Of a stretch of DNA of 64,000 nt, positions 27,573 through 30,758 are shown piece by piece. Made by a program: the position numbers and the translations under genes. Source of the DNA: Halorubrum sp. CBA1229 (GTDB taxonomy: Archaea > Halobacteriota > Halobacteria > Halobacteriales > Haloferacaceae); NCBI RefSeq assembly GCF_003721435.2, contig NZ_CP054585.1, positions 2,976,001 through 3,040,000 of the forward strand, read 5' to 3'. Positions within the stretch are counted from its first letter, which is position 1, and every line of letters starts with the position of its first letter. The notes beneath the pieces were generated by a model. That model was not told the DNA's origin. It searched no databases and saw only the letters and a list, made by a program, of their open reading frames with translations.

Positions 27573-28175
27573 ATGACTCTCGACCGGTACCGGTCGGTGG
27601 CGGACCGCCTGCTCGGACCGTGGGTGCGCGCCGCCGCCCGGCTCGGGCTCTCGCCGGACCAGGTGAGCGTCCTCGCGTTCGGCGTCGCGGTCGCGGCCGC
27701 GGGCGCGTTCGCGGTCGGCGACCCACTGTTCTACGCGGTCGGCGCCGTGTGCGTCCTCCTCAACGGCTGGCTCGACCTCGTCGACGGCGCCTTGGCGCGG
27801 CACCTGGAGGTCTCCTCGGACGGCGGCGACCTCCTCGACCACGTCCTCGACCGGTACGCCGACATCGCGATCATCGCCGGCTTCACGGTCGGGGTCGAGG
27901 CGTACGCCCTCGGCTTCCTCGCGGTCACCGGCGTCCTGATGACCTCGTACATGGGCACGCAGATCCAGGCGGTCGGCATCGGCCGCGAGTACGGCGGGCT
28001 GCTCGGGCGGGCCGACCGACTCGCGCTGATGGGTCTCGTCGGCCTCGTCGCGGCGGTCTACTCGGCGCCGATCGTCGCCGGACTCAACGTCGTCGGGCTC
28101 CTGCTCGCGCTGTTCGCCGCCGTGGGGCATCTCACCGCGGTCCAGCGGTTCCTGGGCGCGTGGAGCGATTTATAA
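27573..28175 (+). CDS. CDP-alcohol phosphatidyltransferase family protein
   Basis: 200-residue membrane enzyme that condenses a CDP-archaeol-type lipid with an alcohol. The full signature D-G-x2-A-R-x8-G-x3-D-x3-D is present in LVDGALARHLEVSSDGG followed by DLLDHVLD near residues 67-90, giving the metal-binding Asp residues. About six membrane helices are predicted. Family members in archaea make archaetidylinositol phosphate, archaetidylglycerol phosphate or archaetidylserine; size and clustering with an AK6-type kinase suggest the inositol-phosphate group, but this is not decided. It lies 26 bases after the kinase gene, same operon. Confidence 0.9.
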   Translation: MTLDRYRSVADRLLGPWVRAAARLGLSPDQVSVLAFGVAVAAAGAFAVGDPLFYAVGAVCVLLNGWLDLVDGALARHLEVSSDGGDLLDHVLDRYADIAIIAGFTVGVEAYALGFLAVTGVLMTSYMGTQIQAVGIGREYGGLLGRADRLALMGLVGLVAAVYSAPIVAGLNVVGLLLALFAAVGHLTAVQRFLGAWSDL

Positions 28176-28350
28176 ACGGGCCGACGTACTGAGTGCGAAT
28201 CCCGGAGCGACCGTGTGTTTGTTTATAAGTCAGAGCGCGGTGTTGCCATCGGCTATTTATCAGTGGTCGACGACTCTGCGGTGACGACCACCAAAGCCCC
28301 ACCCGCCTCGCACCGCAACCGCAGCCTCACGCCTCCCCAGCCTCGGCGGA

Positions 28351-28383
28351 CGGGCCGGCGCGGGCCGGAGCCGCGCCGGCCCG
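28351..28383. terminator. GC-rich 13-bp hairpin; candidate bidirectional terminator
   Basis: Arms CGGGCCGGCGCGG and CCGCGCCGGCCCG pair perfectly around GCCGGAG, midway between the converging operons. There is no T-run, so termination is inferred from stability and position. Confidence 0.4.
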
Positions 28384-28407
28384 CCGCCTCCCTCGCACGC
28401 GCTCCTC

Positions 28408-28429
28408 GCGGCCGTTTATAAACGGCCGC
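28408..28429. repeat. Perfect 22-base palindrome with TTTATAAA core
   Basis: GCGGCCG on the left mirrors CGGCCGC on the right around TTTATAAA. The flanks continue as an imperfect inverted repeat (CGCTCCTC against GAGGCGCG). It could be an operator over a promoter or a hairpin in RNA. Confidence 0.7.
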
Positions 28430-28548
28430 TCGGAGGCGCGCGCCACCGCATCAACTCTTTATAAATGATCGCCGCCGTACCCGTGCCGATCGAAACCGGA
28501 AGAGAACGTCTCACCGACGGAACCGTCCGACGGTAACGAGAAGGGCGA

Positions 28549-29886
28549 TTACGGCCGCGTCGCCTTCGCGAACCACGTCTCCGGGTTCTGTCGCTTGACG
28601 CGGAAGCTCGGGAGTTCTTCGGCGTCGACCAGGTCGAGCAGGAACCCTCGGACGGGCGCCGGGTCGCGGTCGCTCACGATGAGGCACTCCTCGCCGGCGT
28701 CGAGCTCGCGGAACCGCGCCTCGACGCGCTCCTTACGCGTCTCCGGGTCGAGCCCCCGCAGATCGACGGCGTCCTCGGGCGGGTCGACCGTCCAGACCTC
28801 GTCGTACCGCTCGTCGACCGCGGCGGCGAGGTCGGTCGCGTACTCGGGGAGTGCGTCGGCGTTCGGCGCCGGCGTCGACTGCATCTCCGGATCGAAGGGG
28901 AGGTCCGCGAGCACCGGCAGATCGAGCGCCTCGATCGGGTCGTCGCCGCCGAACAGGTCGTGCGGGGTCCCGCACTCCTCGCAGACGAACTCCCCCATGT
29001 TCGAGACGACGCCGAGCACGGGCACATCGTTCTCTTCGAACAGCTCCAGCGCCCGCGCGGTGTCGGAGACGGCGGCGTGGAACGGCGTCGTGACGAGGAC
29101 GACGCCGTCGACCGGCACCTCTTGGAGGGTGGTCAACGCCACGTCGCCCGTCCCCGGCGGCATGTCGACGACGACGGTGTCCGGGTCGCTCCAGGCGGCG
29201 GTCTCGAACAGGTCCGAGAGCGCGTCGTGCGCCATCGCGCCCCGCCACGCGAGCGGGCCGTCGTCCGAGAGCAGCCCGACGCTCATCACCTCCAACCCGC
29301 CGACGTCGACCGGGACGGGATTCCCGTCGTCGTCGCTGTAGACGGGGCCGCTCGCGCCGACGACCTCCGGGACGTTGGGGCCGTAGATGTCGGCGTCGAA
29401 CAGGCCGACTGAGGGGGCGTCGCCGTCCTCGCCGTCGGTCTCCTCGCCGCCACTCCCGGCCGCGAGCGCGCACGCCAGCGTCGTCGCGACCGTCGTCTTC
29501 CCGACGCCGCCCTTCGTGCTCGCGACCGCGATCACCCGGCCCGCGGTTCCCATCCCCGACGCGCGGCCGTCGAGGTCCGGGCTCGGATCGACCTGCTCGA
29601 TCCGCGCGTTCGACACCCCCGGCGCGTCGGAGGCGGCCCGGACCATGGCGGCCGACACTCGCTCGGCCGCGTCACGGGGGAACTCGCGCAGGTCCGCGGT
29701 GACCGTCGCGGCGCCGTCGTCGACCGCGACGTCCTCGACGACGCCCGCCTCGAACACGCTCACGCCGGCGTCCGGGTCGCGGACCTTCCGGAGCTCGGCC
29801 TCCACGGCGTCGGCTGGCGACTCGTGATCGGTCGGTTCGTCGGCGGCGTCTGCGTCGTCGGGCGTGTCAACGGTGGGATCTGTCAT
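28549..29886 (-). CDS. Mrp/NBP35-type Fe-S carrier ATPase fused to a DUF2249 domain
   Basis: 445 residues, last gene of the nar operon. Residues 22-100 form an MIP18/DUF59-like domain. Residues 115-360 are the Mrp ATPase: deviant Walker A KGGVGKTT (125-132), switch segment DADIYGPNVPEV, DMPPGTGD (241-248), and the Fe-S-carrying pair C302/C305 in VCEECGTPHDLFGG. Residues 373-445 (VDLRGLDPETRKERVEARF, SDRDPAPVRGFL, ETWFAKATRP) match DUF2249, a TusA-like fold seen beside NO and nitrate metabolism genes. The start is ATG 29886; upstream frame is shadow. It probably delivers Fe-S clusters to NarH, NarG or the Rieske protein; the fusion is unusual. Confidence 0.88.
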   Translation of the reverse strand: MTDPTVDTPDDADAADEPTDHESPADAVEAELRKVRDPDAGVSVFEAGVVEDVAVDDGAATVTADLREFPRDAAERVSAAMVRAASDAPGVSNARIEQVDPSPDLDGRASGMGTAGRVIAVASTKGGVGKTTVATTLACALAAGSGGEETDGEDGDAPSVGLFDADIYGPNVPEVVGASGPVYSDDDGNPVPVDVGGLEVMSVGLLSDDGPLAWRGAMAHDALSDLFETAAWSDPDTVVVDMPPGTGDVALTTLQEVPVDGVVLVTTPFHAAVSDTARALELFEENDVPVLGVVSNMGEFVCEECGTPHDLFGGDDPIEALDLPVLADLPFDPEMQSTPAPNADALPEYATDLAAAVDERYDEVWTVDPPEDAVDLRGLDPETRKERVEARFRELDAGEECLIVSDRDPAPVRGFLLDLVDAEELPSFRVKRQNPETWFAKATRP

Positions 29887-29921
29887 GGTGGTGTGGTCGG
29901 CGTCGGCGTTTCGAAGTCGCT

Positions 29922-30758
29922 TCACAGGTCCGGTCTCCGGTTGAGCGTGCTCTCGCCGGGCAGGTCGGCGCTGTCGTTCTCGGTGCCGCCGCTGAACTGC
30001 CGCCGGAACTTCCCGGGGTCGGCGTCGATGGCGCGGGCGGCGGTGCTCCGCACGACCTTCGGCTCCGTCTCGTCGGCCGCGACCGCTTCGAGGCGTTCGA
30101 GCGCGCGCTCGTCGTCGACGCCGGCGAGCAGGTGGACGGCCCACTCCCGCAGCCGCTCGCTGTCCGCGTGCGACAGCTCGAGCAGGACCGGGCGCAGCGC
30201 CTCGCCGCGGCTTTTGAACAGCGAGACCATCGCGTTTCTGACGACCGCGTGGTGGTCGTCGTCCAGCGCCGCCTCGATTGTCGCCGCGTACTCGCCGCGG
30301 TCGATCCGGTCGAGCGCGACGACGGCCTCGGCGCGGACCCACGGGTCGGAGTCGTCACACGCCGCGACCGCGGCCTCGCCCGCCCGCTGGCCGCCGAGCT
30401 CGCCGAGCGCCTCGACGGCGAACTGGCGCACGTCGGCGTCGGCGTCGGCGAGGCCGTGTTCGATCAGCGCGTCGACGGCGGCCTCGCTCGGTCGCCCATC
30501 GCCCAGCGCCAGCGCCGCCCGCCGGCGCTCGACCGGGTCGCCGTCGACGAGGTCCTCGATCTTCGCGGCCGCGTCGGTCCCGCGGAGCGGGGCCGTGTCC
30601 GTCGCCTGCAGCTCTCGCGGGCTCGCGTCGCCGATCGTCACGTCGCGGCTCACCTCGATGTCCTCGAGCCCGTCCGGCTCCTCGCCGAACCCCGGGCTCT
30701 CCTCGGGGTGGACGCGGGGGTCAGTCGGCCCGTCCGTCGCCTCCTCCGGGTCCCTCAT
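29922..30758 (-). CDS. HEAT-repeat protein of the nar operon
   Basis: 278 residues. An acidic, Pro-rich N-terminus (about 75 residues) precedes five or six HEAT/PBS-lyase-type repeats of about 30 residues, recognisable by DADVRQFAVEALGELG, DPWVRAEAVVALDRID, HHAVVRNAMVSLFKSRG and SERLREWAVHLLAG. Such repeats make protein-protein scaffolds. The ATG at 30758 overlaps the upstream stop by 4 bases, so it is translated with the operon. A role as assembly or docking factor for the nitrate reductase is inferred from context; no catalytic residue is visible. Confidence 0.82.
   Translation of the reverse strand: MRDPEEATDGPTDPRVHPEESPGFGEEPDGLEDIEVSRDVTIGDASPRELQATDTAPLRGTDAAAKIEDLVDGDPVERRRAALALGDGRPSEAAVDALIEHGLADADADVRQFAVEALGELGGQRAGEAAVAACDDSDPWVRAEAVVALDRIDRGEYAATIEAALDDDHHAVVRNAMVSLFKSRGEALRPVLLELSHADSERLREWAVHLLAGVDDERALERLEAVAADETEPKVVRSTAARAIDADPGKFRRQFSGGTENDSADLPGESTLNRRPDL

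Follow-up and report, generated by a model that had tools for sequence, protein, structure and literature searches.

Between two converging genes of Halorubrum sp. CBA1229 lies a gap (28176-28548) in which no gene is called, and the question it raises is whether the hairpins and TTTATA-type motifs crowded into it belong to a non-coding RNA or to a dispersed element. The gap is part of the window, i.e. the whole stretch of 64,000 nucleotides that was analysed. Gene calls, both here and around the other copies in this genome, come from a custom codon-score script and not from a published caller. The convergent arrangement and the gene-free gap agree with the original prediction, which was made from the sequence only. 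Its 13-bp GC hairpin is likewise present (28351-28363/28371-28383, 100% complementary), as is its perfect 22-base palindrome, GCGGCCGTTTATAAACGGCCGC. The five TTTATA-type motifs are all found in or near the gap (28169, 28220, 28254 as TTTATC, the HP2 loop at about 28415, and 28458), but they are not independent of one another: two lie in degenerate 57-nt units, one in the HP2 loop and one in the 5' flank of a repeat, and the motif at 28169 closes the upstream gene, where GAT TTA TAA reads Asp-Leu-stop. GATTTATAA occurs likewise at the end of the phosphatidyltransferase gene in several species that lack the element. The features described for the gap are far beyond chance.

A BLAST search of the own genome with 28150-28570 finds at least 52 matching places among the 40 of 224 candidates that were scored, the best paralogue with E 1e-36. 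The sequence is thus multi-copy, as had been suspected, and with matches throughout the genus it is neither single nor unconserved. Positions 28217-28482 are one minus-strand copy of a large dispersed repeat family (Table 1); model R1, which comprises hairpin HP2, hairpin HP1 and the conserved box (together AB), matches it on the minus strand at 28325-28444 with 77.8 bits.

Table 1. Features of the window copy and its flanking genes
Feature	Position	Strand	Remarks
CDP-alcohol phosphatidyltransferase gene	27573-28175	+	upstream flank of gap
Second, degenerate unit, ends in CTTATAAACAAAC	28217-28250	-	same-site alignment with Hd13 and H. amylolyticum
First 57-nt-type unit, diverged: GTGGGGCTTTGGTGGTCGTCACCGC...CACTGATAAATAGCC	28251-28303	-	unit consensus from 139 units
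Linker of TGCGGT-type repeats	28304-28324	-	domain D (~118 nt) absent here
Conserved single-stranded box GAGGCTGGGGAGGCGTGAGG	28325-28344	-	near-invariant in alignment A1
Hairpin HP1 (module B), contains the 13-bp GC hairpin 28351-28383	28345-28388	-	helix 4 covariation
Hairpin HP2 (module A): GGCGCGCGCCTCC-GA-GCGGCCG(TTTATAAA)CGGCCGC-GA-GGAGCGCGTGC	28395-28444	-	includes palindrome 28408-28429
5' flank: TATA-like ATTTATAAA (28458-28466) and upstream stretch CGGCGGCGATC	28458-28482	-	TATA-type hexamer in 73/100 own copies
ParA/Mrp-type P-loop NTPase gene with DUF2249	28549-29925	-	downstream flank of gap

The family in Halorubrum and in the class

A typical copy in the own genome runs in the order TTTATAAA, HP2, HP1, GAGGCTGGGGAGGCGTGAGG, domain D and 57-nt units. 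Over 40 aligned loci, read as the window minus strand, GAGGGA stands between HP2 and HP1, a TGCGGT-rich linker and GGGTGGG stand between GAGGCTGGGGAGGCGTGAGG and D, and the 57-nt units are in tandem. The own domain D reads ACTCAAAGGGGCAG ... CTGGGGCTTTGG; it follows AB in 93 of 100 AB copies with a median gap of 26 nt, and the seven copies without D include the window copy. The spacing of the 139 units is exactly 57 nt in 42 of 53 cases, and about half of the units carry TTATAA near their end. With at most one mismatch, the unit motif has 167 matches in the genome, the reversed pattern 13.

R1 finds 105 AB copies at E<=0.01, all of them on contig C1 (3,218,340 bases) and in both orientations (64 plus, 41 minus) with no clear replichore pattern. 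The second contig, C2 (0.36 Mb), has none, where about 11 would be expected under an even spread. Only 4 of 72,556 plasmid records contain a match, one of them from Halorubrum. None of 100 own copies overlaps a called gene. The neighbouring genes are convergent around 33 copies, divergent around 17 and tandem around 48 of 98; the two copies omitted have no gene on one side within the fetched stretch. In seven loci (L013, L031, L042, L045, L016, L020 and L027) unrelated perfect hairpins are inserted into the loops of D; they are of two or three kinds, which recur among the copies, e.g. TTCACGAGAGC...GCTCTCGTGA and GCGTGGCGC...GCGCCACG, and they resemble nested small palindromic repeats.

All genome searches were confined to the haloarchaeal class. 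R1 matches every Halorubrum genome (52/52), many of them at least 75 times, so that the hunch of a dispersed element of Halorubrum is borne out at both the genome and the genus level. In the family sample, weaker matches extend to 10 further genera, which makes 54 of 148 genomes and 11 of 28 genera in all. The D model, R2, reaches further, to 215 of 292 class genomes and 61 of 77 genera at E<=1e-5; under the stricter filter 77 of the 292 are without a D match. G255 (79 matches), G057 (66), G064 (55) and G257 (46) are rich in D, while other genomes have one match. Outside Halorubrum the domain stands singly or in pairs of outward-facing copies, with the cross-genus core GGGTGGGACTGAAAGGGGC - stem - GACGNNGYAAGCACCGCA ... 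GAGGAGCGCAGCGAG - stem - GGGGCTTTC. Of 60 D copies from other genera, 19 have the box sequence TGGGGAGG in the 120 nt upstream of D and none has it downstream. The 5' end of D, GGGTGGGAYTGAAA, found class-wide (e.g. in L160), may resemble the 3' part of haloarchaeal CRISPR repeats.

Twenty genomes showed a single D match at first, although one turned out to have two; no fixed locus of a single-copy "founder" was found among them, and the place of the single match is common only to related genomes. The sole D match of genome G343 (L321) lies directly upstream of a gene with an Orc1/Cdc6-like protein, as judged from its translation. Single D matches of several genomes (L308, L309, L313, L320 and L314) have common flanking genes; a guess from their translations is that these come from an integrative or plasmid element. 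Searched against 50,697 phage records, a complete Halorubrum copy of 421 nt finds no match, and the Halorubrum string occurs in no viral contig; the 15-base string GGGACTGAAAGGGGC is present in 16 viral contigs, none of which passes R2. On these grounds a viral origin was rejected.

Fold, strand and TATA-like ends

Domain D folds into a long stem whose internal loops are rich in G and A; it ends in a GNA-type loop and has a conserved GGG/GGG internal loop flanked by AAAG and CTTT. In 60 copies from outside the genus 96.8% of the cells pair, a percentage that leans towards structure, as all pair percentages do here, because alignments A3-A5 were fitted to models; double changes occur at 29 of 33 pairs, which none of 500 shuffles reaches. 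RNAalifold on the same 60-copy alignment gives double changes at 33 of 37 pairs. The own copies behave alike, with double changes at 24 of 33 pairs in 94 D copies and at 20 of 23 pairs in 100 AB copies (0/500 shuffles each). In these 100 copies helices 1-3 of HP2 covary, and helix 4 of HP1 has changes on both sides at 7 of 8 pairs. The outer stem of D is CAAAG/CTTTG in Halorubrum and mostly GAAAG/CTTTC elsewhere, a compensated change. Alignment A1 was built from 30 of 38 AB references and A2 from 24 of 31 D references; in A1 a manually drawn structure took the place of the pairing between HP2 and the downstream box proposed by RNAalifold.

The stems are not symmetrical between strands. G-U pairs outnumber A-C pairs 150:21 in own D, 97:9 in own AB and 80:14 in other genera (6-11 to 1), although U-G predominates in a single column of own D, without which the ratio there is 72:20. 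Controls with partners slid by 1-3 columns on identical alignments give ratios of 0.33-1.89, and the excess of G-U over A-C on one strand indicates that one strand folds. Selection thus appears to see the element strand folded, as RNA or as single-stranded DNA. The folding energies of the two strands differ little after shuffling (z lower on the element strand in 44, 27 and 34 of 60), and loop types do not separate RNA from DNA. Certain unpaired residues are kept in all the families of the class sampled (AAGGGG 55/60, GGGCTT 57/60). Covariation above chance on one strand, by which structured RNAs are recognised, is present. With respect to the predicted "non-coding RNA or dispersed element", dispersal is supported, while structure and strand bias fit an RNA and a folding DNA strand alike.

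In the 50 nt that precede HP2, 73 of 100 own copies contain TTTATA or TTATAA, compared with 71 of 2000 random 50-mers; TTTATAA is commonest 19-24 nt before HP2. The TATA box starts at -26 in the mapped promoters of halovirus HF2, according to an excerpt of PMC8707807; at that distance, transcription would be predicted to start at about HP2 +2 to +7. For gaps of at least 45 nt the TATA frequency is 25/34 where the upstream gene points towards the element and 34/44 where it points away. Since its presence is independent of the direction of the upstream gene, the box does not serve the neighbouring gene, and the element as a promoter of its neighbours was rejected. Nor does the orientation of the copies follow the upstream gene (53 vs 45 of 98). 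In 60 copies from other genera no TTTATA or TTATAA lies within 120 nt upstream of D, so that, among the copies tested, the TATA-flanked form is a feature of Halorubrum.

Head-to-head pairs and orthologous sites

All 13 two-D loci outside Halorubrum are arranged head to head, which at a chance of one in four each would be expected with a probability of about 1.5e-8. The 5' ends of the two D copies are 38-42 nt apart in seven loci and 96-289 nt apart in the rest. Copies of the own Halorubrum genome do not have this form. Just outside the D ends the first 8 nt are 65% alike within a locus and 41% between loci, the next 8 nt 47% and 25%, a likeness within loci that may partly be genome-wide likeness. 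The ends of two-D loci were compared; no target-site duplication or clean empty site emerged, and the search for a parent transposon covered the Y1 type. The Y1 transposase (PF01797), sought in 24 genomes hand-picked from D-rich and D-empty ones, has no match in G255 (79 D matches), G057 (66) and G229 (16). With PF01797 absent from three D-carrying genomes, mobilisation of the RAYT type is unsupported: either a Y1 maker was lost there or a different enzyme is at work. A single Y1 gene is present in the own genome (C1:1024074), 4.4 kb from the nearest AB copy.

Some sites are shared between genomes of the genus. Among 18 copies of other Halorubrum genomes five share both flanks with an own copy, six match on one side or match two different loci, and seven have no match. 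Compensated changes and swapped hairpins distinguish orthologous copies from one another; in H. amylolyticum, for example, the whole HP1 at the site orthologous to the window copy is different. This site is present in several states. G009 possesses AB, D and a unit, and Halorubrum sp. Hd13 AB and D, but D is absent from the window site (L048) and from H. amylolyticum, which retain AB. In G017 only the ends of the element are present, enclosing unrelated hairpins, and H. lipolyticum shares the neighbouring genes but has no element. The downstream gene varies as well: in the Halorubrum species of L050, L051, L052, L056 and L060 a small protein gene follows the phosphatidyltransferase gene instead of the ParA/Mrp gene, and the latter is found within the fetched downstream stretch in 5 of the 59 named loci L049-L107.

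Explanations and relation to known repeats

With moderate confidence, we regard the window copy as a partly decayed member of an old REPIN-like (REP/BIME) non-autonomous repeat family dispersed in haloarchaea. This explanation takes up the observed dispersal, anatomy, folding strand and head-to-head pairs together with the shared and decayed orthologous sites. The repeat unit would be read on one strand and, when single-stranded, would fold into HP2, HP1, the G-rich box and then D. An enzyme of the host or of the element would recognise the folded strand and copy or move it, and such copying, rather than one local function, would maintain the family. Copies would settle between genes, be inherited in place for long, lose domains stepwise and be replaced by copies elsewhere; Halorubrum would carry an enlarged form of AB, D and tandem 57-nt units, flanked by TTTATAA. 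What speaks against this account is that Y1 is unmatched in three genomes with D copies, that neither a target-site duplication nor a clean empty site emerged, that D is longer than REPs and lacks their tag, and that head-to-head D pairs are not the form of the own copies.

Less probable, though a serious possibility, is that each copy is a putative structured non-coding RNA gene on the window minus strand, the many copies being paralogous RNA genes. The TATA-like sequence at 28458-28466 would then start transcription just inside HP2, and the resulting AB(-D) RNA might bind a protein or ligand, putatively through the conserved G-rich and AAGCAC/GAGCGCAGCGA loops. Wobble pairs on one strand together with covariation, and unpaired residues conserved class-wide, are what such an RNA would show. 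In the Halorubrum form, moreover, 73 of 100 own copies have a TATA-like sequence, most often at a distance that would suit a promoter, and both this sequence and the orientation of the copies are independent of the upstream gene. On the other side, the TATA motifs are missing upstream of all 60 D copies from outside Halorubrum, and head-to-head pairs about 40 nt apart leave little room for promoters. The lack of a fixed genomic position (single D matches lie at different places except in related groups), the loss of a domain at the window site, the small difference in folding energy between the strands and the absence of an Rfam match also speak against it. The REPIN-like repeat and the structured RNA can both be true, as with transposon-borne RNAs. 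More tentatively still, D with AB may be a class-wide haloarchaeal structured RNA, with tens of copies in many genomes, that spreads by self-copying as an RNA- or single-strand-based element. It would have a G-tract core: D contains four conserved G-tracts (GGGGAGG, GGGTGGG, AAAGGGG and GGGGCTT), which could form a quadruplex-duplex core, favoured by potassium, which is multimolar in haloarchaeal cells.

It is improbable that the covariation stems from mutation, with template switching "correcting" quasi-palindromes during replication and the elements being inert debris. Such a process would account for the exchange of whole hairpins at orthologous sites and for the foreign perfect hairpins inserted in loops, but not for the unpaired AAGGGG and GGGCTT held across the families of the class; it yields Watson-Crick pairs and so gives no reason for a 6-11-fold excess of G-U over A-C. 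A bidirectional terminator or insulator between converging operons is very unlikely, for although convergent genes surround the window copy and 33 of 98 own copies, compared with 17 placed between divergent ones, 48 lie between tandem genes, and neither the strand asymmetry nor the conserved core of D is needed for termination.

Like the bacterial REP, BIME and REPIN elements, the family has about 100 or more copies that are intergenic, palindromic with compensatory changes and non-coding, and in other genera it forms inverted pairs at a fixed distance. As a high-copy intergenic palindromic repeat it resembles REPs (105 AB matches, none of 100 in called genes); inverted pairs with regular spacing are found in other genera (13/13, seven at 38-42 nt) and not in the Halorubrum form. 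The head-to-head layout of the two-D loci is that of REPIN pairs, and it is described for BIME-1 in part of PMC2817692. REPs, as characterised in a section of PMC3733652, are palindromes of 20-40 bp tagged with GTAG or CGTC at one end. No such tag is found in the conserved columns of alignments A1, A2 and A5. The haloarchaeal family is archaeal and larger, with a D of about 118 nt with internal loops and an AB of about 107 nt in place of 20-40 bp; it spans a whole class and not one species or genus, and the PF01797 search found no cognate RAYT. Because the tests of tag, size and RAYT fail, the family is not filed as REP.

Other classes of element are similar in part. MITEs are also short, non-coding and multi-copy, and in other genera two outward-facing D copies form the ends of a locus; these "terminal repeats", however, are not plain inverted repeats but folded domains whose two arms differ in their stems. 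Candidate structured RNAs of the Rfam type share the strong covariation, the wobble on one strand and the conserved loop residues, but the present family reaches about 100 copies per genome and lacks a TATA outside Halorubrum in the copies tested. The class I intergenic repeats of halovirus HF2 (58 bp, promoters), compared by description and not letter by letter, are similar in length (57-58 bp), TATA box and occurrence in or on Halorubrum, but viral. For the window copy, Rfam 15 yields a single sub-threshold hit, to Pyrobac-1 (E 0.83), which lies within the neighbouring gene, and six loci with complete copies or D give one below-cut-off hit (E 0.13). Literature searches, whose scope left out most subscription papers, found no paper on such a family, so that an earlier description is possible; hits for its sequence strings were only to papers whose titles concern other subjects. 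An excerpt of PMC7002113 reports 22 conserved intergenic RNAs of Halobacteria without function, to which the family may be linked. This widespread haloarchaeal repeat family appears to be uncatalogued.

The family makes up a large unexplained part of archaeal intergenic DNA, as a repeat present in most haloarchaeal genomes sampled and in up to about 100 copies per genome. It is either a haloarchaeal REPIN-like system, of which the searched literature yielded none, or a large family of structured RNAs that has so far been missed. GC-rich "hairpins" and TATA-like motifs between haloarchaeal genes can in many cases belong to one repeat, which calls for caution when they are read singly, and the family makes it testable what shapes the intergenic regions of haloarchaea.
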